Position numbers and translations under genes: made by a program | In this document: one piece after another, positions 5,221 through 33,239 of the stretch | How positions within the stretch are numbered: the first letter of the stretch is position 1 | Layout: each line of letters begins with the position of its first letter | The notes under the pieces: model-generated | The model's database searches: none | What the model was told of the DNA's origin: nothing | What the model saw: the letters and a program-made list of their open reading frames with translations, nothing else | Assembly: GCA_001804805.1 (NCBI GenBank) | Contig: MHBH01000024.1 | Coordinates: forward strand, 106 to 33,772 | From: Lentisphaerae bacterium GWF2_49_21 | Lineage (GTDB): Bacteria > Verrucomicrobiota > Lentisphaeria > Victivallales > GWF2-50-93 | Direction of reading: 5' to 3' | Length of the DNA: 33,667 bases

Positions 5221-7419
5221 TCACATCCCCTGTTTATTTACAACAACCGGCAGAGAAAAACTGAATTCCGCACCTTCCCCTATTTTCCCTTCCGCCCAAA
5301 CTCTTCCTCCATGCCTCTGGATGATCCTCTGTACAAGTGCAAGCCCTATGCCGGTACCTTCGAATTCAGCAGCGCTGTGCAACCTCTGGAAAACACAGAA
5401 CAATTTGTCCTTGTATTCCATGTCAAAGCCTACTCCGTTGTCCCTGACAGTAAAAATCACCTCATCACCTTCAGTCCTTCCTTCGACCTTCACAAGCGCA
5501 ACCTTTGCGTGCCTGGTGAACTTGAATGCATTCGCAATCAGGTTTGCAAAGACCTCATGTATCATTGCATAATCTCCAAATGCTTCAGGAAGCTCCCTTA
5601 AATCCAAGCTGACTACCCTCCCCTTCAATTCGTTTTCAAGCTTTGAATAGCTTTCCCTGACAAGATCATTCATATTGATATTGGTCTTATGCAGATCCTT
5701 CCTGCTCATACGTGAAAAGTCAAGAAGATCGCTTATCAATTGCCCCATGTCCTTCGCGCTGTCGCGGATGACTTTGAGAAGGCGCCGTCCTTCATCATCA
5801 AATTTTCCGGCGTAATCCTCTTCAAGTATCCGGGAGAATCCATCAACCGACCTCAATGGTGCCTTTAGATCATGGGAGACGGAATAAGAGAATGCCTCCA
5901 GTTCCCTGTTCACGGCTTCAAGCTCTTCGGTCCGGAGTTTCAGGCTGCGGTTCAGCTTCTCAAGTTCCTTTCCTATGCGCTTGCGCTCAGTTATGTCAAC
6001 AGTGGTCGATCTGCTCATCATATAATTCCCTTCGGTATCTTTTAACGCCGTGGCATTGAGTATGATTGGAAACATAGAACCATCCTTGCGTATCAGTTCC
6101 AAGTCCAGATCCTTGACATATCCCTTTTCCTTGAACTGAGGAAATTCCACCTGGAAGATCTTCTGGCTTTTCGGAGTAAAGATGTCAAAGATTTTTTTCC
6201 CTATCATCTCCTCCTTTGCATATCCGAGCCATTTCAATTCAGTGTCATTGACCATCACAAATTTGCCATCCTTGTCCAATGAATGGTATCCGCAAGGGGC
6301 GTTGTTGTAGAGGTCGCTTATTTCCTTAAGGGACCTTTCGAGCGCGACCGTACGTTCAATGACACGGCGTTCCAGTTCGTCACGTGACTTCCTGAGCAGT
6401 TCGGCGTCCCTCTGCTTCCAGAGGAAACCCACGCCCAGTGCCGTGGAGAAAATAAGAATCATTATAAGCACAACTGTAATCCCGGCCTCTTTTTTCAAAG
6501 GAGAATAAATTTCATCCTCGTCAACTTTGGAAACCAGGAACCATGGAGTCCCCGGAACCGGACCAATATCGGCAATTACATCAACACCACGGTAATCCAA
6601 GCCTTCGATGATGCCCTTCTTCCCGGTCACAGCCATTTGCGCAGGCAGATTTGATTTTTCGGCAATCGGAAATCTCAGTTTCAAGGCCGTATCCTTCCGA
6701 TGCCGCAGTTCATTCAAGAACACCACTTCATCCCCTTCTTTCCGGACCAGCAGGGTTTCGGCGCTTTTGCTTGCTGTAGGCCAGGACTGGATAAGTGGAA
6801 AAAGGAATTCATGGGGATTTATTTCAAGCATCAGTACGCCAACGGACTTCCTTGTCTGATCTGAAACTGTCTTCTCTGAGACAATCGGCACGAAAATATC
6901 CATGTCAACAGTGCCTGGAACCATTTTGCTCAGATGAAGGTCTGAAACCATGATTTTCCCCTCCCGCAATGTGTCGGCTATGAACTTCTTAGAGGTAGGG
7001 CCTGTCCATGTCTTATCCTCGGGAAAGGAGTATACAAGCCGCAGGCTGGAATCAAATAGGAGAACACGGTTGCAATGGAAGTTCCTATGGATCGAGGCCA
7101 TTCGTTCCTTGATTACGCCTATTGATTCAAGTTCGGATGGATTCTCCTTGAGATGCATCATAGCCTTAATAATCGAGGGAGAGTTATATAAGTAATTGGC
7201 GTGGTCAAGCTGATCCGAATACCATGTGACAATCTCCTTTGCTTTAAGCTTTCCTATGGTAGACAACTCCTCTTCTGCGGAAATGCGGGACTTCATAGAA
7301 TGATCTTCAAGATGGAAATACCCTATTGCTCCGATTCCAATTGCAAGAAGTAGGAAAGCCGTCACATAGGCCTTGGACAGCCTATTTGAGAATTCACCTG
7401 ATGGATTTTCATTTTTCAC
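5221..7419 (-). CDS. Membrane sensor histidine kinase (Cache-like sensor, PAS, phytochrome-type kinase core)
   Basis: This is a 732-residue inner-membrane kinase. The first membrane segment is near residues 17-36 and the second near 313-334, enclosing a periplasmic domain of about 275 residues with the size and layout of a double Cache sensor. A coiled linker (about 338-365) leads to one PAS domain (about 366-480) and a second coil. The HisKA domain has His516 in YSVSHDLKAPLRS, the variant typical of phytochrome-like kinases. The ATPase domain shows N626/N630, G1 DNGVGF and G2 EGTGIGLAL. No receiver is attached, which fits a separate partner such as the regulator at 4504-4947. The GTG start at 7419 overlaps the end of the upstream kinase by 11 bases and has AAGGAG four bases before it, so translation is probably coupled. 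Confidence 0.94.
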   Translation of the reverse strand: MKNENPSGEFSNRLSKAYVTAFLLLAIGIGAIGYFHLEDHSMKSRISAEEELSTIGKLKAKEIVTWYSDQLDHANYLYNSPSIIKAMMHLKENPSELESIGVIKERMASIHRNFHCNRVLLFDSSLRLVYSFPEDKTWTGPTSKKFIADTLREGKIMVSDLHLSKMVPGTVDMDIFVPIVSEKTVSDQTRKSVGVLMLEINPHEFLFPLIQSWPTASKSAETLLVRKEGDEVVFLNELRHRKDTALKLRFPIAEKSNLPAQMAVTGKKGIIEGLDYRGVDVIADIGPVPGTPWFLVSKVDEDEIYSPLKKEAGITVVLIMILIFSTALGVGFLWKQRDAELLRKSRDELERRVIERTVALERSLKEISDLYNNAPCGYHSLDKDGKFVMVNDTELKWLGYAKEEMIGKKIFDIFTPKSQKIFQVEFPQFKEKGYVKDLDLELIRKDGSMFPIILNATALKDTEGNYMMSRSTTVDITERKRIGKELEKLNRSLKLRTEELEAVNRELEAFSYSVSHDLKAPLRSVDGFSRILEEDYAGKFDDEGRRLLKVIRDSAKDMGQLISDLLDFSRMSRKDLHKTNINMNDLVRESYSKLENELKGRVVSLDLRELPEAFGDYAMIHEVFANLIANAFKFTRHAKVALVKVEGRTEGDEVIFTVRDNGVGFDMEYKDKLFCVFQRLHSAAEFEGTGIGLALVQRIIQRHGGRVWAEGKIGEGAEFSFSLPVVVNKQGM

Positions 7420-10400
7420 AATGCTCCTTCATCGCATCCTCTATGCTCAATGACAGTTCCTTCATATTGAACGGCTTCTGTATGAACGCCTTCGCACCTG
7501 CATCCAGAAGGCCCTGCGTCTCGCCATCCATGCTGTATCCTGAAGCCAGAAGGACCCTGATTTCGGAATTGATGGATTTCATTGAGACAAAGGCCTCCTT
7601 GCCATTCATCCGAGGCATCATTATGTCAAGTACCACAAGATCTATGTCCTTCCATGAATTGCGATAGAACTCAACCGCCTCAAGACCATCATTGCACGTC
7701 ATGACTTTATGCCCAAAGGATCTCAGCATGCTTCCAACCATGTTCCTGACAATCTCCTCATCGTCTACCAGAAGAATACGGATGCCTTTCCTCTTCAAGG
7801 TGGATTCTGGTTTTGAATCATCCTTATGGACAATATCTTCCATCAGAGGGAAATACATGCAAAATACCGAGCCCTTGCCAGGTTCGCTATTGACATTGAT
7901 GATTCCATTGTGGCTGTTTACGGTGCCATACACAGATGCAAGCCCCATCCCTGTGCCCTTGTCCGGACCCTTGGTGGTAAAGAAAGGTTCGAAAATATGC
8001 TTTATCGTCTCCTTGTCTATTCCAATACCGGTGTCACTGATGCAGATTTTCAAATAACGGCTCATCAACGCCTTTTTCTGATCCTCCTTGTGAAAGACTT
8101 CCTCCATCGGGACATTTTCCGTGGTGAATGTGATCTCTCCGCCGTTAGGCATGGCGTCACGGGCGTTTATCGCCATGTTCAGCAGGGCGTTCTGCAGCTG
8201 CGTCGGATCCCCCACGATTATCGCCGGGCTTGCCTTCAATATCCTCTTGATTTCAATCCTCTTGTCTATGCTGTGCTCAAGGACGCTTATAACCTCCTCA
8301 ATGACCTTGTGGACGTTTACCGGTATAGTCAGGAATTTCCCCTTCCTTGAAAAGGCCAGAAGATCCTTGGTCAGATCCGAGGCTCTCCGCGAAGCACGAA
8401 GGATGCTTTCAATGTCATTTCTGAGATTGACATCATCCAGACGGTCATAAAGCAGTTCGGCGCAGCCCATTATGCCCATAAGCTGGTTGTTGAAATCGTG
8501 GGCGATTCCTCCGGCAAGTTGTCCTATTGCCTCCATTTTTTCGGAATGGCGGAGCCTCTCTTCAAGCTTAAGACGTTCCTCTTCGGCTTTCCTCTGTGTC
8601 GAAATATCGCGCACTGTCGCCTGAAGAATTATTTCGTCCTTGATTTTCACCCTTGAAAGAAGCACTGTGGCCGGGAATTCCTCCCCGGTCAACCGGCGAT
8701 GCGTCCATTCGAAGTAATTATACCCATCCCTTACTGCTATCTCAATCATCTCCTTCGCCTTCTCAATGGATTGCCGCCCATCAGGCTGAGACAAAGGAGA
8801 AAGCTCCCATGGCGCATGTCTTATAAATTCTTCAATGTCCTTCACCCCGAACATCTCGGCTATGGCAGGATTTGCGGAAGTGAATTTCCATGACGGCGGT
8901 GACAGCGTCATCAATGCATCCTTTGAATTTTCAAAAAGAGTGCGGAAGCGTTCTTCGCTCGTTTCCAGCGCCTGCTCAGTCCGCCTGCGCTCGGTGATAT
9001 CGTCGAACATGACGAACACCTTGCTTGCAACAGGAACTCCAAAGATGAACATTATCTTGACATCTCCATTCTTGCAGGTCACATGGTATTCTCTTCCTTC
9101 TATCTCGTGGTTGTCGGCTATTGCCTTTTCCATAAGACCCATCCACATGGCCATCGCTTCCTTGCGGTATTTCTCATCCGGATATGCCCGCTCCCACCAG
9201 CGGTCCATGTTCGGGATATCCTCATGGGAATAACCAAATGTCTCAACCGACTTATTGTTGATGAATTCAATCGTGCCGTCCATGCCAACTATCGCCATCG
9301 ACATCGGGGACTGTTCGACGATTTTCTGGAACCGGGATTCGCTCTTCATCAGTTCCTCAGTACGTTCCTCTACAAGTTCTTCGAGCCTGTTGCGGTATTT
9401 GTCCAACTCCCTCTCGGCATTCACCCTGTCGCTAATGTCATTTCCAACGCATAGTATCTCTATAACATTCCCCTTCTTATCCAGGATCGGCTTATTAGTC
9501 CAGGCTATCCATACGCGTTCGCCGTTCTTGCGCATGTTCTCATTGAGGTTGTTCCTGTATTTCTCAGGATGCCTGCCTATGTCCAGGATCATCACCTTGA
9601 GATCTGCTCCGTTCGTATCGAATTTGGGGACGATCGTTCCAACCACGTTTTTGCCAAGGATTTCCTCATTGCTGAAACCAAAGAACATCTGGGCGAACTC
9701 GTTGAAGAAAGTGACTTTTCCGGTATTGTCCATCCTGAGAATTATGCTGTTTGTGTTCTCGACAAGTTCCCGGTACTTCTTCTCGCTCTCTTTCAGTTCA
9801 GAGCTGCGTTCTTCCACCAGCTCCTCAAGATGATCCCGGTGTCTGGCAAGTTCAGCTTCGGCCAGCTTGCGGTCTGTCATGTCAAACTCAATTCCGTCCC
9901 AGCATGTCGTCCCGTCCTCAAGCCTGCGCGGACTTGAAACAAAAAATGACCAGCGGATTCCTCCAGAGGGAGTAATTATCCTGGCTTCGCTTTTGAAAAT
10001 GGATAGTTTCTCATTAGCCTCCTCCTCTTCTAGAAATATCCTTTCCCTGTCTTCCGGATGCACCTTGTTGTAGATAAGGCTGGCGTCCTTCATTCCTTCC
10101 TCAGGAGTGATGCCATAGAATTTTTGCACAGTTTCGCTCAAATATGTAAACCGGCGCGATCTGTCTTTCAACCTCAATAATTGATAGATCATCCCCGAAG
10201 CCAGATTGTTGCTGATATTACGGATGAGGGCTTCGTTCTTACGCAGCTCCTCCTGGCTCTTCCTGCGTTCCGTTATATCCCTGCACAGCGTAAGAATCCT
10301 CGGTCCATCCCCAGTTTCAATGACTGTCGCATTTATTTCAATCGGGGTGATCTTCCCTGAGGAATCGACGTAATCTATTTCAAAATTCCTTATGTATCCG

Positions 10401-12937
10401 TCCTTGGCGCATTTCCCTACAGCTTCGGCGTTTCTTTTCCTTTCATGTTCGGCGGTCCATTCAGTCACCTGCCTGCCTAGAATATCCTTCAACCCCTTAT
10501 GCCCTGTCAGATGGACATACTCCTGGTTCGCATCAATGACCCTTCCTTTGTCGTCAATCGTCACGTATCCAGTATTTGTCGTGTCAATCAGCGACTTGTA
10601 TTTTCTTTCGCTGCTGATCAAGGACGCAGACGCCTTCCTGCTTTCTGTAACATCACGGAAGCTCCAGACGCGGCCGACAGGTTTTCCATTTATCCGCTGT
10701 GGATGGGAATAACGCTCAAATATCCTTCCATCCTTGAACTCGAATTCGTCAAAACTTCCCTCCTCGGGATGGACATAGAGATATTTGACCTTGCTGATGA
10801 ACTTATCTGGATCCTTCAGCTGGTCAAGAACATAGTTCAGCGCCCGTTCATCCTCCCCCCTGGCTATGATTTCCCTAGGGATGTTCCACATCTTTGAAAA
10901 CCTGCTGTTCGAGTAAGTGATTTTCCCTTCAAGATCGACGACAAGGATGCCGTCAGTTGTGGATTCTACGGTAGCACTCAGGAGAGATAGCGACTGATTC
11001 AGCCCCTCTTCCACCATTTTGCGTTCTGTAATGTCCAGAAGCACTCCGGTCCAAATACGTTCCCCATCAGGAAGCTCCCTTGGACGCGACTCATAATGCA
11101 TCCACCTGACATTTCCCTTTACTATGAAACGCCCTTCCCAGAAGAATGGCTTTAAATTCTTATCTGAATATTCGTTTTTAGCCACCCACTCATCCCAGTC
11201 ATCAGGATGGATCATCTTCATTGTCAGTGTCGGATCCTTGAGATGCTCCTCCCTTCTTGCACCTGTAAGTTCGCAGTAACGGTCATTCATGAATTCATAG
11301 GCGTACGGGGGCTTGTCCGCAGAGGACCATTTGCCTTTCTTCCTGACCCTGATCCTGTATATTCCCGCCGACTGGTTGGCCAGGATGTCCTGATACAGCG
11401 CCTTGCTCTCCAGCAACATGTATTCGAATTGTTTCCGTTCGGTGATGTCCCGGAAGAAACCCACATTGCATTCGGTCCCTTCAAGCGTCAACCGCGCGGC
11501 GCTTATGTCCACATAAATGATTTTCCCGTCCTTGCACAGGCATGGAATGTTCGGAGCTATCGTCTTTTCACCCCTCGCCTGAGATTCAAATTCGGAGAGG
11601 ACGCGCGGCCAGTCGGGCGCAGGATGGATCTTCTGGATGGACATTTTAGCAAACTCGGCGGCGGAATACCCCAGCATTTTACAAATTCCAGGATTGGAGT
11701 ATTTGATCTTTTTCGTATGGATGTCCGCTATAAGGATGCCATCGGTGGCTCCTTCAAGGATCAGCTTGAACCTTTCGTATGACTCCTCAAGTTCCTGTTC
11801 CACCTGTTTGCGCTCAGTGGTGTCATCATATATGGCGACAATTTCGCCGGAAGGCAGCTTGTATATGTAGTTCTCCTTCCAACCTGATATCCTCTTGTCC
11901 TTGTAGAGACTTACGGGATGATTCTCCGGCTTCCCCGTCTTCCATACCCTCTTGAATACATCAAAAAGACCAAACTCCTTTACTCCGGGAAAAACTTCAA
12001 GGACTGATCTGCCTATTACCTTTCCCCTTGAGATCTTCTCTGTCTTTTCAGCTGATTTATTGAAATCCTTTATAATGAAGTCTTCACCATTTTTTGCAGC
12101 CTCGTAAACCGCCACACAGCTTCCCATGCTGTCAAATATGTTGCGGAACCTGTCTTCGCTTATCTGCAGGGAATCCTCCATGTTCCTGCGCTCGGTAATG
12201 TCGGAAACAATATGAACTATTCCACAGATCCCCCCCTCCTCGTCAAGAATCGGATCAACCGTTATTTCAAGCCAGAGATCCCCTGATTTTACAACAGAAA
12301 CTTCCCTCTTCTTTGTTTTTTGCATCCGTACTGTTGGACATTCTGGCAGGGGTTCAGTAGTCCCATGCACGACTTCCCAGCAAAATTTCCCGAGCATCTT
12401 TCCAGAATGCTTCTTGAACATCTCGCTTGCCGCCTTGTTGCAACGGAGAATTTTAAAGTCGGGGCCCAGCAGGAACATGACATCCTTCACTGCATCAAAG
12501 GTCGTCTGCCATTCGAGAACGGCGGTAAGCAGGGTGTTCTCAGCTCTCTTTCTCCGAGTAATGTCCCGGCAAGTGCTCATGATCGCTGACTGTCCTTCCC
12601 AGACAATCAACTGGGCGGTCACATCGACAGGAAAACTCGTACCGTCCTTGCGCTGATGCATTGTTTCAAAGGTGGCCTGCCCGTCCTTCAGAACCTTGTC
12701 TATACGTTCTGGCATATTGATGCGCTGATCTGAATTATCCACCATATATGGGTTCAGGGATATCAGTTCATCCTGATCATAGCCAAGTTGGCGGCAAGCT
12801 GTCTTGTTGGCGGCAAGTATTTTCTTGCCTTTGGTGTCATGTATGAAGATGGCGTCTCCGGCTTCTTCGAAAATCTTCCGGAATTTCGAATCATCCCCAG
12901 GTAGCGGAGCTGGATTAACATGGTTTTTTCTTATCAC
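7409..12937 (-). CDS. Giant multi-PAS hybrid histidine kinase with C-terminal receiver
   Basis: This protein of 1842 residues carries about 11 consecutive PAS domains (about residues 15-1460), counted from the repeated boundary motif D-I-T-E-R/DITRRK at the end of each. Several look like PAS_3 folds (for example domains 5 and 8). Two linkers repeat an EELVEERxxEL coiled coil before domains 9 and 10. Phosphotransfer His1480 lies in [10 protein letters not shown]. The ATPase has G1 SDTGIG and G2 DKGTGMGL. The receiver carries Asp1771 in VLDIMMP. No membrane segment or signal peptide is visible, so sensing should be cytoplasmic, possibly of redox, ligands or oxygen through the PAS domains. The GTG start is supported by AAGGGG seven bases upstream. 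The stop overlaps the next kinase by 11 bases. It is much longer than usual hybrid kinases. Confidence 0.95.
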
Positions 12938-16231: not shown

Positions 16232-17476
16232 TTATTTTTTCTGAAGTTTCCCGTAAGCATTCCCCATATAAAGGCGTTTTAGAGGAGTTGCAGTCATGTC
16301 AAATGCCACCTTGTCCTGAAAAAGCATCACAATATCGGATCCACCAAATAGAAAGTACCCCAGCATATCTCCTTTCTTGATCTTTGCTCCCGGTACAACT
16401 GTTTTCTCAAAGTTGACCGACGAGACCTGGGACATTCCTATGGGGAGGACGGCCACCAGTCCAAATTCACCCGTATCCACAATGACGCACCCTCGTGTTT
16501 CAAACGATTGCCATCCGGGTGTCTGATCCAGAAGAATGTATTTCCCGTTTTTCGGATCCCAGATAGTAACGCCCCCTGCGGCATCATCCTGATCGATCAG
16601 ATTCACTTCCAGAACAGTACCGGAAACCGGGAAGTGATACCGATGGTAGTCGTTCACATCAAGAAATGTATGTGTCAGTGTCCCGTTTGCAAAAGCATCC
16701 TGATATTTGCTGCTTTTCCCAAGCAGGGGACGAACTGAATTGAACACGGCTGACTTGATCTGAACCCCCTCTTTCTGGATGATATTGGAGTTCCGGTCGA
16801 TCTGCCAAACTCCCTGTGGAGTGGAATCCGCCGGAGCCGTAACAATGGAATTATCATCTTTTGACTCAATCGGGCGCTTGTCCGGATTCTTTAAATATCT
16901 GGCAAAGAAGTCATTGAACGTCTTCCAGTTCCCGGGATCTTCATACCAGTCGTTCTGGAGACCGAATCGATCATCCTCCAAAGCCGTTTTATAATAGGAT
17001 TCGTTCCAAGACACCGGCGTGGAAAGATATTCACCCCATTTCTTTGTAAACACAATCATCCAGGAACGAACAGGCTCTACGTATTGGAGGGAATTATAGT
17101 AATAACCTTTTCCATCCAGTTCCTCGAGCGGCTGGTCGAGAATGAAATAGAAATAACACAGGCTCTGATCAATGCGCTCATAAAGCTTCGGGTATTTTTT
17201 TTCTGATTCCGGGAGGATGTTCCACGGCATGGCCCTGGCTGCCCAATCCAAGAACTTATAATATTCATCCAAATTCTGAGCCGGATTGGTTTCTTTGTCC
17301 GGATTGACGGTTTTTGCCTTTTCAATGGACTTCACAAGCAGGGCCTTCAACTCGGGATTATGATTCATAATGGTGATGAACTCTTCCGTAGACGGCTCAA
17401 CACACCATGCGATCAATGTCAGCAGGAAGAACGTCGCTCCCAGAAATATTTTCTTCAAACAGCCCTTGTAAGCCAT
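16232..17476 (-). CDS. Exported phosphatidylserine-decarboxylase family protein of PsiD type
   Basis: The protein has 414 residues. It has an N-terminal signal peptide or anchor (positively charged KK, then FLGATFFLLTLIAW, about 8-25). An N-terminal domain of about 150 residues resembles the accessory domain of PsiD-like enzymes (PSDC-type), with KKWGEYLSTPVSW near 145-157. The catalytic domain follows: TFNDFFARYL (about 186-195), TAPAD with Asp217, DVNDYHRYHFPVSG with His278, and the self-cleavage motif FGGSD with Ser380, which would become the pyruvoyl group. Known family reactions are decarboxylation of phosphatidylserine or, in PsiD, of L-tryptophan; the substrate here is unknown. AGGAGGG six bases before the ATG decides the start. 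No phospholipid gene (pssA) is next to it. Confidence 0.88.
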   Translation of the reverse strand: MAYKGCLKKIFLGATFFLLTLIAWCVEPSTEEFITIMNHNPELKALLVKSIEKAKTVNPDKETNPAQNLDEYYKFLDWAARAMPWNILPESEKKYPKLYERIDQSLCYFYFILDQPLEELDGKGYYYNSLQYVEPVRSWMIVFTKKWGEYLSTPVSWNESYYKTALEDDRFGLQNDWYEDPGNWKTFNDFFARYLKNPDKRPIESKDDNSIVTAPADSTPQGVWQIDRNSNIIQKEGVQIKSAVFNSVRPLLGKSSKYQDAFANGTLTHTFLDVNDYHRYHFPVSGTVLEVNLIDQDDAAGGVTIWDPKNGKYILLDQTPGWQSFETRGCVIVDTGEFGLVAVLPIGMSQVSSVNFEKTVVPGAKIKKGDMLGYFLFGGSDIVMLFQDKVAFDMTATPLKRLYMGNAYGKLQKK

Positions 17477-17596
17477 GGCAATCCCTCCTGTTTCATTGTT
17501 TTAGTGAACCGGGAACATTTATAAGCTACAACTTAGAGATAGTATTGGAAAAAGACAAGCGAAGGAATGTCATATACAATATTTAAATCCACATTT

Positions 17597-18883
17597 CTAC
17601 AACAGTTTATGATCCGAACTTATGCCCTTGATCTCATTAGGACCGAGTTTCGCTTTCGCAGCAAAATCCGGCCATTTGGAAACCGCTTCTCCAACCTGTT
17701 TAATAACCTTCTCGGCAGTGCCTATGCCAAACCGTTCTGCAAGTTCCAGAATATCGGCCCTGGAGATGCCCGCGAATTTCCGATTGACCGACATCAGGTG
17801 CTGATGTGTCCATTCACTTTTGGGATTATAGGCGTGCGTCACATCATACGCAGGCGCAAGCTGCCAGACTTTTCCTTCGCGCTTAATGAAGGAGAAGTTC
17901 TTGGGGTGATCGTCACAATTTGCAGTCATCACATTGAAGACCATCCTCCTGAACGCCTCTTCCTTGGCGGAGTATTCCAAGTCCAACTGTCTGATAGCCA
18001 GGAAAAGCTGGCTATAGTCGTGGCTGGCCTTCTGTTTGTAGTCCAGATGCGACATGGCACACAAGGTCTGGAGATGGTGCTTGCGGTTCCCGTCCCTGTC
18101 AAAGCGAAGTGTCATGAAATGGGCACGGCCGTTTTCCTCCAGCAACTGGCATTTGGACATTTCAATTCCTGCGGCAACAGCCATCAGATGATAGGCATAT
18201 TCTATACGTCCATAATCCTGTGAACCTCCAAGTTCCCTGTCGGCTCCCATGCCATCGAACTTGAGAAGCCAGTGCTCAAATCCGGACTCCACATCAAACT
18301 GCCCAGACCTTATTTCCCTTGTCTTCGGGTTCCACGCTATTGCGGCCTTGGCACGGGCTCCGCCAGCCGAGGTTCCAACCTGGATTATCTGCATAAGGGC
18401 AGCCTTTGACAAGTGGTCTTCCCCGAGATGACCGTGCACGGCGCTGCGGGCGCTTTCAATAAGGTTTGACAGATCGATGGCTGTACTTTTTGCTCCGGCG
18501 GGATTGCTGCGAGCAGGCTTGAACTCCAAAGCGCCGAAACCCCTCTTTCCCATGTAGGCAAGACGGTCCAGCGCGGTGATGTTTTCCTTATCAACACCCT
18601 TGCCCGCCATCCAGGCGTCAATAAGACTGTTACCAAAGTCATCTGGAAGCGCATCAGCCAGCAACGCCGGCAAACGCTTGAATGTAAGCTCTGGCAGGTC
18701 GGTGAAGATGAATGGCTCTCCAGCTCTTGACAGTGGCATGCTCAGCGGAGCCAGTTCGATCCCGGACGCGATGAATGCAGGCGCATATTCAAACGCATAA
18801 TAGCCAAGACGGGGATCTAGCGCGACCGCACCGACAGTCCTTCCCCATATACGGACCTCTATGGCTGAAACCGGCTTAAACAC
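17597..18883 (-). CDS. hipA: HipA-family serine/threonine kinase (toxin)
   Basis: The protein has 428 residues, the usual HipA length. HipA kinases phosphorylate a cytoplasmic target (glutamyl-tRNA synthetase in E. coli) and cause growth arrest. An N-terminal HipA domain (about 8-110, with RAGEPFIFTDLPELTFKRLPALLADALPDDFGN) precedes the kinase. The kinase shows the Gly-rich loop VGTSAGGARAKA (about 169-180), the catalytic segment TANCDDHPKNFSF (about 320-332, Asp324 and Asn329), and a DFG-like APAYD with Asp347. The GTG start has AGGAGG four bases upstream and overlaps the end of the antitoxin gene by 8 bases. All key residues appear intact, so it is probably functional. Whether its target is GltX cannot be told. 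Confidence 0.94.
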   Translation of the reverse strand: MFKPVSAIEVRIWGRTVGAVALDPRLGYYAFEYAPAFIASGIELAPLSMPLSRAGEPFIFTDLPELTFKRLPALLADALPDDFGNSLIDAWMAGKGVDKENITALDRLAYMGKRGFGALEFKPARSNPAGAKSTAIDLSNLIESARSAVHGHLGEDHLSKAALMQIIQVGTSAGGARAKAAIAWNPKTREIRSGQFDVESGFEHWLLKFDGMGADRELGGSQDYGRIEYAYHLMAVAAGIEMSKCQLLEENGRAHFMTLRFDRDGNRKHHLQTLCAMSHLDYKQKASHDYSQLFLAIRQLDLEYSAKEEAFRRMVFNVMTANCDDHPKNFSFIKREGKVWQLAPAYDVTHAYNPKSEWTHQHLMSVNRKFAGISRADILELAERFGIGTAEKVIKQVGEAVSKWPDFAAKAKLGPNEIKGISSDHKLL

Positions 18884-19184
18884 TTATCCTCCTGTTCCTA
18901 GACACCCTCTGCCGGACGGGTTTGGATTTCAGCATTTGCATAGGACTGATTGAAACCTGCGGCGTCAGAGTAGCAAGCCATTCATCCCTTTCCAAGGTAC
19001 GTAACACTTTAATCAGGGATGTGAGGGTTGCCCCTTTGCCTGACTCCAGCCTTTTCACAGCATTAAGAGCTACCCCGGCCCGTTCCGCAAGCTGCAGTTG
19101 GTCCATGTTCTTGCGAATCCTCAGCACACGCAGTTGCTGACCGAGTTCAGCTTCCCATTCCCTATGCGTAATATCTCTTTTCAC
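18876..19184 (-). CDS. hipB: HipB-like antitoxin, Xre-type DNA-binding protein
   Basis: The protein has 102 residues with one helix-turn-helix of the Xre/Cro type (about 15-65, including DQLQLAERAGVALNAVKRLE). It should bind its own promoter and neutralise the HipA kinase, as in HipBA systems. The GTG start is supported by AAGG six bases upstream. The C-terminal tail (about 75-102) is basic (KPVRQRVSRNRRISV) and could contact HipA or DNA. A palindromic operator lies 20-41 bases upstream of the start. Confidence 0.92.
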   Translation of the reverse strand: MKRDITHREWEAELGQQLRVLRIRKNMDQLQLAERAGVALNAVKRLESGKGATLTSLIKVLRTLERDEWLATLTPQVSISPMQMLKSKPVRQRVSRNRRISV

Positions 19185-24977: not shown

Positions 24978-27900
24978 TCAATAAAGCATCCTTAACTTTT
25001 CCAGATCCAGATATCTTGTCGAAGACAGGACTGTGTCGGCCTCATATAGATCAATCTTGTATCCGATCCCCATGCTCTTAGTTCCGGCGTTAACCGCCGC
25101 CGCGATCCCAGCCTGGGCATCCTCGACGACAACGCAGTTTTCCGGCCTGACCTTGAGCTTTGACGCCGCTAGAAGTACCCCTTCAGGGTCCGGCTTGGAA
25201 CGCTTGACATCATTTCCAGTGACAACAACGTCGAAATATTTCACCACCTTGAGCTTCTCCAGTATCAGCTGGCTGTTCTTGCTTGCCGAACACAGGGCTA
25301 TCTTTATCTTGTCCTTCCTCAGCTCCTCGAGAAGTTCCGGTATCCCGGGGAGAAGATTGTCCGGAGTTATATGGTCAAGCATCTTGACATAGGTCTTGTT
25401 CTTCCTGTCCGCCAGCTCTTCCATCTCCTTGTCGGAATATTTCCTGCTGCTTCTTTCCATGATGATCTTAAGGCTGTCCATCCGGCTCACGCCCTTGAGG
25501 CGTTCATTGATCCGTTCGTCGAAGTAGATCCCCTCCTTTTCAGCAAGTTCCTTCCAGGCAAGGAAATGATATTTGGCGGTATCGACAATGACGCCGTCGA
25601 GGTCGAAGATCACCGCCTGCAGCTTCGGACGCTTCAGGAAGTTTTCATCCAGCGGGACCGACAGGGATTTCCCAGTAAGCGTATAATCCTTCCCCTTGAT
25701 TTGCACCTTGACATCATTTCCTCTGGCTATCTGGTAGATGGCCTGTTTCTTATCGACTTTGACCTGGATAACGCTTCCCTTGTAGGCGACTCTAAAAGAA
25801 TAATCCTTCCAGTCTTCAGGCACAATCGGATTGAAACTGATGGATTCATCGGTGACTGACATCCCTCCGAAACCGAAAACTATATTTGCCCAGCTCCCGG
25901 CCATTGAGGAGATGTGCAATCCTTCATGTGTGCTTTTGTTAAGGTCGTCAAGATCAAGCCGCGATGCCCAGAGGTAATAGGCATACGCCTGGGCATATCG
26001 CCCGATTTCACATGCCAGGATCGAATGGATGCACGGGGAAAGAGATGATGAATGGGCGGTACGCTGCTCGTAGAAACGGTAGTTGTTCCTCTTCTGTTCA
26101 ATAGTGAACTTATCCCGGTGGAAGAATATCGCAAGAAGAGTGTCGGGCTGCTTGACCATGTCGGTCTTGTACCATTTCTCCACCGTCCAGTGCCTTTCAA
26201 TAGGTATGTCCTTTTCGGGATCAAGCTGTTCACGGGTGAACGGCTCCATTGAAAGGAACATGTCGTCCTGGGGGAATATCTTGAATTTTTCATCGTAGTT
26301 CAGGATCATCTTCCCGGCGATCTGCCGCCAGGTGAAAAGCTCATCAGGATCCAATGTTATCTTGGATACCAGAGAATCAAGGTTCTGCGGTGATTCGACA
26401 GACATCCTGTCCACCACCTGGGCGGCATATTCAAGAACCCATTTCGCCATGTAGTTCGTGTAGAAGTTATTGTTCGTCCAGATATGCCATTCGTCCGGAC
26501 CCGTGACACGGTTCAGAGCATATCCGTCCCTGTAAGGAATAAAGCAGGCCCGGTCGGCCCAGAAACGCGCCTGTTCGACCAGCACCTCAGCTCCTTTTGT
26601 GAACAGATATTCGTTGTCTCCTGTAGCCCTGACATACTGGTATAATGCGAATGGTATTATTGCGTTGATGTGGATTTCAGAAAATACCAGGTCCCAGACG
26701 ACGCAGTCTTCAGTCCCATCAATCGTCGTAAACGGATAGACTGCACCTTGATAGCGGAGTTCGCGGGCACGGGACCGTGCGGCATCAAGAGTGTTATATC
26801 GGAATTCAAGGAGACGTTTTGCCGCTTCAGGATTTGTGTATAGATAGAACGGCACGCAGTAGCTTTCAGTATCCCAGAACGCCCGGCCATCATAGACTTC
26901 TCCTGTCATCCCCTTTGCCCCGATGTTCAGATAAGCATCACTTCCGCGGTAGGTGTTGAGAAGCTGGAAAAGGCAATATCGAATCCCCTGTTGCGCGGAT
27001 ATATCGCCGTTGATCTCCACATCCATGTCGTCCCAGACTTTTTTCATGCAGCTGGAATGCCTTGCCTTCAAACCATCATAATTGATCTTTGTCACCGAGT
27101 CAATGCGTTTCTTGCTGTTGGTCTTTATGAAATCAAGGATTTCCTGTTCATCTTTCGCATCGACCTCAATTCCAGACTCATCTTTGACGATAAGCCCATG
27201 CGGATATCCTGCGTCACGGCTGTTCCAGACGGAAACAATCCTGCTGAAAACATATTCCCTCCCTTTTTCAGGAGTGAATGAAATCATGCACTCGACTGTT
27301 TTTTCACGGACAGAATATTTTCCCTCTGATTTTTTAAGATTCGGATCCTTCAGGATTACCATGTGATGGATGTAATACTGCCCGGTTGAACGGATTTTCA
27401 TGATCAGCGACATCTCATCCGCCTTTGAAACTGCTGAAACCTTGTCTGAATGTATCCCGGTCTTTGTCACTTCAGTCTGGTTGCCTTTCGTAGCATCCAG
27501 CTGGAATGAAAGGCTCACGGTCTTCTGGTGGTTCAAGGCCTTGATCGAGATCTTCTGGGCGCCAAGACGCCGGTCATCCAGGCTTAAAAACCGTTCCCAC
27601 CGGAGCTGGGTCCTGTGCCCCGAACCTGTGACAAATACAAGTTCCCTGCAGAGAACGGCCGTCTTCATGTCCAATGTCCGGGAGTAACTTTCAAATTTAG
27701 AGGAATCCATCTGGAATGCTTCGCCGTCGACTTCGACAATTATTTTCAGCCAGTTGGTCGTATGGGCCATGGAATTCATGTAGCTTGGGAATCCGACCCG
27801 TTTCCACTCGAAGCATGTCTTCTCCTTGAAATACATGCCTCCGACATAGCATCCTTCGAGGGTGTTACCCTTCAATCCCTCTTCGAAAATCCCCCTTGTC

Positions 27901-28022
27901 CCCATGTATTCGTTGGCAAGGGAGAAGATTGATTCGGCGACCTTGTTTTTCCCGGGATCGAATTTCTCCTCGATTATTAGCCAGGGATCTTCCTTGAATA
28001 ATTTCACGGTGCTGCAATTCAT
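24978..28022 (-). CDS. GH65 disaccharide phosphorylase fused to beta-phosphoglucomutase
   Basis: The protein has 1014 residues in two enzymes. Residues about 10-790 are a GH65 phosphorylase with AKGMTGEVYDGRAFWDTE, GAVYPFTTIDGTED, catalytic acid Glu511 in VTGPDEWH, and the phosphate-site sequence MVKQPDTLL. GH65 phosphorylases split trehalose, maltose, kojibiose, nigerose or related alpha-glucosides with inversion, giving beta-glucose-1-phosphate; the exact substrate cannot be read here. Residues about 800-1014 are a HAD-family beta-phosphoglucomutase: nucleophile Asp807 and Asp809 in FDLDGVIVDT, CSASKNS, KPDPEGVLLA and VVEDAQAGIAAA. The fusion would channel the product to glucose-6-phosphate. 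There is no signal peptide. The ATG at 28022 with GAGGA six bases upstream is preferred to the adjacent GTG. The GntR-type gene follows after 15 bases. Confidence 0.93.
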   Translation of the reverse strand: MNCSTVKLFKEDPWLIIEEKFDPGKNKVAESIFSLANEYMGTRGIFEEGLKGNTLEGCYVGGMYFKEKTCFEWKRVGFPSYMNSMAHTTNWLKIIVEVDGEAFQMDSSKFESYSRTLDMKTAVLCRELVFVTGSGHRTQLRWERFLSLDDRRLGAQKISIKALNHQKTVSLSFQLDATKGNQTEVTKTGIHSDKVSAVSKADEMSLIMKIRSTGQYYIHHMVILKDPNLKKSEGKYSVREKTVECMISFTPEKGREYVFSRIVSVWNSRDAGYPHGLIVKDESGIEVDAKDEQEILDFIKTNSKKRIDSVTKINYDGLKARHSSCMKKVWDDMDVEINGDISAQQGIRYCLFQLLNTYRGSDAYLNIGAKGMTGEVYDGRAFWDTESYCVPFYLYTNPEAAKRLLEFRYNTLDAARSRARELRYQGAVYPFTTIDGTEDCVVWDLVFSEIHINAIIPFALYQYVRATGDNEYLFTKGAEVLVEQARFWADRACFIPYRDGYALNRVTGPDEWHIWTNNNFYTNYMAKWVLEYAAQVVDRMSVESPQNLDSLVSKITLDPDELFTWRQIAGKMILNYDEKFKIFPQDDMFLSMEPFTREQLDPEKDIPIERHWTVEKWYKTDMVKQPDTLLAIFFHRDKFTIEQKRNNYRFYEQRTAHSSSLSPCIHSILACEIGRYAQAYAYYLWASRLDLDDLNKSTHEGLHISSMAGSWANIVFGFGGMSVTDESISFNPIVPEDWKDYSFRVAYKGSVIQVKVDKKQAIYQIARGNDVKVQIKGKDYTLTGKSLSVPLDENFLKRPKLQAVIFDLDGVIVDTAKYHFLAWKELAEKEGIYFDERINERLKGVSRMDSLKIIMERSSRKYSDKEMEELADRKNKTYVKMLDHITPDNLLPGIPELLEELRKDKIKIALCSASKNSQLILEKLKVVKYFDVVVTGNDVKRSKPDPEGVLLAASKLKVRPENCVVVEDAQAGIAAAVNAGTKSMGIGYKIDLYEADTVLSSTRYLDLEKLRMLY

Positions 28023-28125
28023 CACAGTTCCTCTTTCATTATAGAAAATTAAACCCTATATCTATATCAAATTCTGTAAAAAAAAAGGAGTCAACCGAGC
28101 TGATTTCAAAAATACGAAGAACATT

Positions 28126-32438: not shown

Positions 32439-32488
32439 TCAATTTTTGTCGGACTCGTCAGACTGGTCAGACACGTCGGACATTTCCC
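32439..32488. repeat. Direct repeat downstream of the four-helix gene (GTCxGAC units)
   Basis: This stretch contains five spaced units of the type GTC(A/G)GAC, roughly every 8-9 bases, flanked by TTCAATTTTT on one side and ATTTCC on the other. It overlaps the last codons of the four-helix gene and encodes its Ser-Asp rich tail. A closely similar copy in the same orientation lies at 33260-33311. Confidence 0.75.
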
Positions 32489-33239
32489 TTATTCCCCTAC
32501 AATCAGGATAGCCAGAGCAACCCCAAAAGGATTTCCCGGCATTTACCCCTTTCTTTGCAGTTCGCTGGATCATTTTTTTGTCGCAAATGGGGCATACCGG
32601 AATTTGGGCAATGGAGTCCGACCTGTCAGAATTTCCAGACTCTCTCTGCTTCATCCGGGTTGCGTATAGTCTTTCGGTGAAGCCGCCATGGCTGATGAAA
32701 TCCCTGTCCTGGCTTTGAATCTGCCTATACAGCAGATATGCCGCCTGGTTTATGGCGCACAGCATTGCATTGGCAGCAATTTCAGGATCGGCCTTCGCCA
32801 CAAACTCAGGAAGCCCCAGTAATCCAGTAAGAATAATTTTCCCTTCTGCAGATCTTGGCAGATCTGATGCAATGTCATGCATGAGTCGCTTGCGCATAGC
32901 CAGCGATTTCCGGGAATCCTTCTGCCATACACTCAATCCCTGTTGAAGCAGAAAACTTTTGTAGTCCTTGGCAAGTTCATCTGAAAGGCTTGCTCTGGCG
33001 ACATTTGTCAGCTTGATCTCAGTCTTGCGCGAAGTCGCAGCAGCCCCGCTGCCCTCGCTGATGTTGCGTACGCCACTACGGGCGGCCTGCACCATCTGGT
33101 CATGGGTGCGGGAACGCTTGTCAATGAAACGGTCGCAGAAGATCACTGTGGCATCATATACCACCTCGGCTACCTTGTAACTGCGGAGTTTTTCATATCC
33201 GCCGTGCGGAAGAAGGGTGCTGCTGGGAGATTTGTTCAC
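32439..33239 (-). CDS. Four-helix-bundle 'suffix' protein with C4 zinc finger
   Basis: The protein has 266 residues. The N-terminal part (about 14-75: YEKLRSYKVAEVVYDATVIF, RTHDQMVQAARSGVRNISEG) is the four-helix-bundle domain related to the 23S rRNA intervening-sequence proteins. A longer helical region typical of the 'suffix' subfamily follows (LSDELAKDYKSFLLQQGLSVW, AANAMLCAINQAAYLL). Near 214-250 is a topoisomerase-type zinc ribbon: CPICDKKM and WGCSGYPDCRG, with four Cys. The last 14 residues (MSDVSDQSDESDKN) are encoded by a repeat. The GTG start has AGGA six bases upstream. The function of the family is unknown; nucleic-acid binding is likely. It ends 16 bases before the 561-residue protein gene. 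Confidence 0.88.
   Translation of the reverse strand: MNKSPSSTLLPHGGYEKLRSYKVAEVVYDATVIFCDRFIDKRSRTHDQMVQAARSGVRNISEGSGAAATSRKTEIKLTNVARASLSDELAKDYKSFLLQQGLSVWQKDSRKSLAMRKRLMHDIASDLPRSAEGKIILTGLLGLPEFVAKADPEIAANAMLCAINQAAYLLYRQIQSQDRDFISHGGFTERLYATRMKQRESGNSDRSDSIAQIPVCPICDKKMIQRTAKKGVNAGKSFWGCSGYPDCRGIREMSDVSDQSDESDKN

Follow-up and report, generated by a model that had tools for sequence, protein, structure and literature searches.

Amino-acid and lipid decarboxylases are usually regarded as cytoplasmic. A gene of Lentisphaerae bacterium GWF2_49_21 appears to encode a pyruvoyl decarboxylase that leaves the cytoplasm, which raises the question of what family the protein belongs to and what it may act on. 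A sequence-only reading had proposed an exported PsiD-like enzyme that would be unusual in a bacterium, its layout being closer to that of fungal PsiD-type decarboxylases, which act on tryptophan, than to that of ordinary bacterial phosphatidylserine decarboxylases. The window referred to below is the whole stretch of 33,667 nucleotides that was analysed.

The gene and its surroundings

The open reading frame at 16232-17476 proved to be real and intact, and it lies on the minus strand (Table 1); the plus strand across the same positions contains several stops. Its GC content of 46.2% is close to that of the window (47.1%), giving no hint of recent transfer. A pattern scan of 84,980 species genomes yielded at least 413 confirmed loci of the same kind, and the best 80, with 51-78% identity, were studied. 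In the exported family, dN/dS for close pairs was mostly about 0.06-0.16. This purifying selection indicates a working gene rather than a chance reading frame.

Several other minus-strand genes of the window were noted. A HipA-like kinase toxin gene (PF07804, PF13657) lies 121 bp upstream of the decarboxylase gene on the same strand, together with an upstream HTH antitoxin gene that overlaps it by 8 bases (17597-19184). By eye, a 1015-aa frame at 24978-28025 resembles a fusion of a GH65 glycoside phosphorylase and a beta-phosphoglucomutase-like HAD part, and the frame at 7409-12937 encodes a hybrid histidine kinase of 1842 aa with many PAS-like repeats. At 32439-33239, a four-helix part resembling those of 23S rRNA intervening sequences is joined to a topoisomerase-type zinc ribbon.

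Table 1. Features of the decarboxylase gene and its product, in window positions
Feature	Residues	Position	Strand	Basis
CDS, exported PS_Dcarbxylase-family proenzyme	414 aa	16232..17476	(-)	ATG at 17476, stop at 16232
Shine-Dalgarno AGGAGG, ATG 7 bases downstream		17484..17489	(-)	sequence
Signal peptide, Sec type	1-25	17402..17476	(-)	sequence; export signals of relatives
Accessory helical N-terminal domain	27-183	16928..17398	(-)	AF2 model
PS_Dcarbxylase catalytic domain	184-414	16235..16927	(-)	PF02666 match, structure matches
D217 (E. coli D90)	217	16826..16828	(-)	invariant, 74 members
D276-Y-H278-R-Y-H281 (E. coli D142-Y-H144-R-V-H147)	276-281	16634..16651	(-)	D276, H278, H281 invariant, 74 members
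Predicted self-cleavage site Gly379-Ser380	379-380	16337..16342	(-)	invariant; E. coli G253-S254 (PMC7952604)

Conservation of export

The N-terminus of the window protein (MAYKGCLKKIFLGATFFLLTLIAWC) shows a hydrophobic core following a basic n-region, in agreement with the signal peptide that had been proposed. Judging from the sequence, cleavage probably occurs just after the AWC motif. An export signal, either a signal peptide or a lipobox, was found in 77 of the best 80 relatives among the 413 loci by a rule-based scan for a hydrophobic stretch with a basic n-region, which is not a trained predictor. About 45 of these 77 have a lipobox-like motif and 32 do not, a few of the lipobox assignments in Chlorobiota being doubtful. 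Ordinary signal peptides predominate in the relatives from Chlorobiota, Thermodesulfobacteriota and Negativicutes, and lipoboxes are found in those from Bacteroidota, Spirochaetota and most other Bacillota and Actinomycetota. The signal-bearing relatives span monoderm and diderm phyla. In the distant relative L006 the signal is absent. The occurrence of the same mature protein with two types of signal argues that the extracytoplasmic location itself is selected. As far as these sequence signals indicate, export is conserved across the family though the type of signal changes.

Catalytic domain and conserved residues

PF02666 matched residues 187-409 over model positions 1-197 of 198 (E 3.7e-38; 131.6 bits against a cut-off of 22). 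All three motifs named in the sequence-only reading were found: NDFFAR at 188-193, YHRYHFPVSG at 277-286 and FGGSD at 377-381. In E. coli Psd, self-cleavage is driven by D90/D142-H144-S254, decarboxylation requires His144, and Tyr137 contacts the lipid phosphate (PMC7952604). The residues D217, D276, H278, H281, G379 and S380 of the window protein are invariant in the alignment of 74 family members, so the Asp/His/Ser triad is retained. H269 and D381 are likewise invariant in the family and are absent outside it in the sample aligned.

The gene is isolated, with no pathway neighbours, which would be compatible with a surface protein that cleaves itself but employs the fold in a role other than decarboxylation. 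However, the residues for cleavage and for catalysis, the His144 equivalent included, are invariant in 74 sequences from many phyla, and the family is under purifying selection. This makes a role other than decarboxylation very improbable.

The position of E. coli Tyr137 is occupied by Phe271 in the window protein and by Phe in 72 of the 74 family members. It is also Phe in all 12 PsiD-clade sequences, and Arg in 22/22 of the type-I Psd sampled. The short Psd of the window's own genome has Phe at this position too, indicating that the residue alone neither decides the substrate nor excludes a lipid. In the PsiD clade, the D90 position is Glu in 11/12 sequences (among them PsiD and 9/10 bacterial PSDC proteins) and D142 is lost in 12/12.

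Predicted structure and the accessory domain

The AlphaFold2 model of the window protein was confident, with a mean pLDDT of 92.6 and a pTM of 0.87, and the N-terminal domain folded alone had a pLDDT of 94.9. Foldseek placed PsiD and the arginine decarboxylase of Aspergillus oryzae at the top, followed by E. coli Psd. In VIA-align comparisons the first two reached Z 21.4-21.6 with 303-320 aligned residues, matching both domains (model residues 24-378). E. coli Psd matched one domain, at Z about 16 and with 210-228 aligned residues that start only at residue 121-139.

Only in the full-length comparison did the accessory domain align with the N-terminal domain of PsiD and with that of the A. oryzae enzyme. 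The domain model alone gave no Foldseek match in the PDB, with Z at most 2.7, and profile and sequence comparisons of the domain with PSDC domains were no better than shuffles. PF12588 (PSDC) gave no Pfam match to the window protein and matched 3 of 57 relatives, at a best E of 0.018. A full-length BLAST alignment with a PSDC protein of Caballeronia (L123) was colinear over residues 30-400 at 26% identity. The accessory domain is thus a probable, though not proven, homolog of PSDC. Of the proposed PsiD-like layout, the two-domain build stands, with PsiD and the A. oryzae enzyme as the nearest solved structures, but the PF12588 domain itself was not recognised.

Phylogenetic placement

The short type-II Psd row was too divergent to place: with a branch length of 10 it distorted an initial tree, which was rebuilt without that row. 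In the rebuilt tree, PsiD, the A. oryzae enzyme and the bacterial PF12588 proteins form one clade (100/100). Type-I Psd proteins form another (98/98), which excludes the window family; a position among classical Psd enzymes, named beforehand as counting against the PsiD-like reading, was not seen. The window family groups with L006 (85/89). Under midpoint rooting of this rebuilt tree, the window family joins type-I Psd and not PsiD, a pairing that depends on the rooting.

A classical or housekeeping Psd was rejected as an identity for the window protein, which lies outside the Psd clade and whose genome encodes a separate Psd. Its scores against the NCBIfam Psd equivalogs are also too low (best 91.7 bits versus 371; TIGR00163, 65.6 versus 111.75). 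Orthology with PsiD was rejected as well, given the position outside the PsiD clade. Among 289 genomes of the same phylum, 10 encode PsiD-type (PF12588) proteins, indicating that the window protein is not just the version of PsiD that bacteria have. Together with the at least 413 loci of the exported family, this calls for a revision of the view that such a protein is unusual in a bacterium. By sequence comparison, the window protein belongs to a third, separate and widespread clade, uncharacterised so far.

The placement also bears on whether the protein is a PsiD-type decarboxylase of tryptophan or another aromatic amino acid. The common build, the FGGS cleavage site, the GM(S/T) motif and Phe271 are consistent with such an enzyme. 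However, the window protein is outside the 100/100 PsiD clade and retains D217 and D276, and PF12588 is not recognised in it. Moreover, PsiD shares its clade with a second solved protein, 9jer, whose PDB title names an arginine decarboxylase, so resemblance to this clade does not predict tryptophan. None of the results supports tryptophan as the substrate, and an aromatic amino-acid decarboxylase of this type is hardly to be expected here.

Distribution and gene neighbourhood

The exported family is spread over at least eight phyla. The best 80 of the 413 relatives come from Verrucomicrobiota, Thermodesulfobacteriota, Chlorobiota, Bacteroidota, Myxococcota, Pseudomonadota, Bacillota, Spirochaetota and Actinomycetota. 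The closest of these 80 (L033, 78% identity) is labelled Verrucomicrobiota, which is probably the phylum of the window organism as well; a 16S search of its draft genome gave no rRNA. Cultured carriers include Chlorobium ferrooxidans, Anaerovibrio lipolyticus and Bullifex porci. Two genomes from the genus of the window organism and three from its family contained no relative at E 1e-15, indicating a patchy presence. The tree mixes phyla, with Sutterella beside Coriobacteriaceae and Haliea within Bacteroidota. This suggests horizontal transfer, to which mis-binning of MAGs could contribute an apparent share.

No neighbour genes were conserved beyond closely related genomes, and the neighbourhood gives no direct clue to the substrate. 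In three Chlorobiaceae (L041, L044 and L053) genes for cytochrome bd oxidase are located close to the family gene, and ABC-transporter genes follow in two of the three; this association with cydAB and ABC-transporter genes is limited to Chlorobiaceae. A Desulfocapsa contig (L056) carries two family members in tandem between positions 685 and about 3200, 38 bp apart. No relative matching the patterns used was found on viral contigs, and phage and plasmid records gave only distant Psd or PSDC-type matches, all below 60% identity. None of the papers searched dealt with an exported pyruvoyl decarboxylase or with the A. oryzae enzyme.

Phosphatidylserine metabolism in the carrier genomes

The window genome contains two PF02666 genes. 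The second encodes a short Psd of 233 aa (best NCBIfam match in the PRK05305/TIGR00164 group), and directly after it lies a pssA-type synthase gene (TIGR00473, 89.6 bits, cut-off 107, versus 27.8 for pgsA). This Psd is separate from the window protein, which is therefore an additional paralog.

An ordinary Psd was missing from 17 of 50 carriers, 15 with a single PF02666 gene and 2 with two family-length copies; many of these are draft MAGs, in which single absences are weak evidence. The pssA model scored above its cut-off in 23 of the 50 carriers, most of which also have an ordinary Psd. E. coli-type pssA was absent from 17 of 18 genomes checked, with the Psychromonas genome (L049) as the positive control. 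In L068, L088 and L104, the best match to the pssA type II model is a clear pgsA. In six other genomes that were read, including that of the isolate Bullifex porci (L090, two candidates), the best matches are CDP-alcohol transferases of unassigned type, which could make phosphatidylserine (PS). This pattern of absences makes self-made PS unlikely as the general substrate.

The enzyme might instead decarboxylate PS outside the cytoplasm, either PS of the inner membrane's outer leaflet, PS of the outer membrane or PS acquired from other organisms. This would fit the PF02666 domain, the equivalents of D90 and D142, which the family retains like Psd and the PsiD clade lacks, and the joining of the family to type-I Psd under midpoint rooting. 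The 23 carriers with pssA, most with an ordinary Psd as well, point the same way. On the other hand, 17 carriers lack an ordinary Psd and at least three have pgsA-type synthases only, Phe replaces the phosphate-contacting Tyr/Arg, and the nearest folds are amino-acid decarboxylases. An exported PS decarboxylase is accordingly considered rather unlikely, but a substantial alternative.

Proposed function

The preferred reading, held at a probability of roughly 0.6, is an exported, self-activating pyruvoyl decarboxylase for which self-made PS is a less likely substrate than a free amino acid or a similar small amine. The absences of Psd and pssA, the nearest folds and Phe271 together make this class of compound the better guess. 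A Sec-type signal would direct the proenzyme out of the cytoplasm; in the window protein this is probably a signal peptide that is cleaved off, and many relatives carry a lipoprotein anchor instead. Once exported, the proenzyme would cut itself between Gly379 and Ser380. Ser380 would become the pyruvoyl group, which would form a Schiff base with the substrate amine, leading to loss of CO2. Because this cofactor would come from the enzyme's own chain, PLP would be unnecessary outside the cell. The accessory N-terminal domain is predicted to be placed as in PsiD and the A. oryzae arginine decarboxylase.

It is proposed more tentatively, at somewhat less than even odds, that the family as a whole is a clade of extracytoplasmic amino-acid or small-amine decarboxylases with their own cofactor, working at the cell surface or in the periplasm in at least eight phyla. 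If this is true, amines are made outside the cell, including by gut and rumen anaerobes. A conserved exported branch, in phyla ranging from Chlorobiota to the Bacillota and Actinomycetota of the gut, would put the synthesis of amines or of phosphatidylethanolamine outside the cell, and would require no imported cofactor to do so. The label "phosphatidylserine decarboxylase family" is probably misleading in genomes that lack both an ordinary Psd and a recognisable PS synthase.

Comparison with known systems

E. coli Psd (6l06, 7cnw-7cnz) resembles the window protein in its catalytic domain and in all D90/D142-H144-S254 residues. In contrast to the window protein, it has neither an accessory domain of such size nor an export signal, it is located at the cytoplasmic face of the inner membrane, and its phosphate contact Tyr137 corresponds to Phe271.

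The bacterial PSDC proteins (PF12588 plus PF02666; Caballeronia L123, Burkholderia L124 and L113-L122) differ from the window protein in their strong PF12588 match, in grouping with PsiD and in mostly lacking the D90/D142 equivalents. By eye, most have no export signal; a signal peptide is apparent, also by eye, at the start of three of these PsiD-clade proteins (L113, L114 and L122).

The A. oryzae arginine decarboxylase (9jer, 9jf5; function from the PDB title) shares the two-domain build (Z 21.6, 315 residues), but it belongs to the PsiD clade and is 22% identical in the structural alignment. The best PDB match in both sequence and structure is PsiD, the L-tryptophan decarboxylase of Psilocybe (8x4q, 8zia). 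PsiD and the window protein have in common the PF02666 domain, the FGGS site, a helical N-terminal domain, Phe at the Tyr137 position and the GM motif. They differ in that PsiD has lost the D90/D142 equivalents and shares its clade with PF12588 proteins, whereas the export signal is a property of the window protein.
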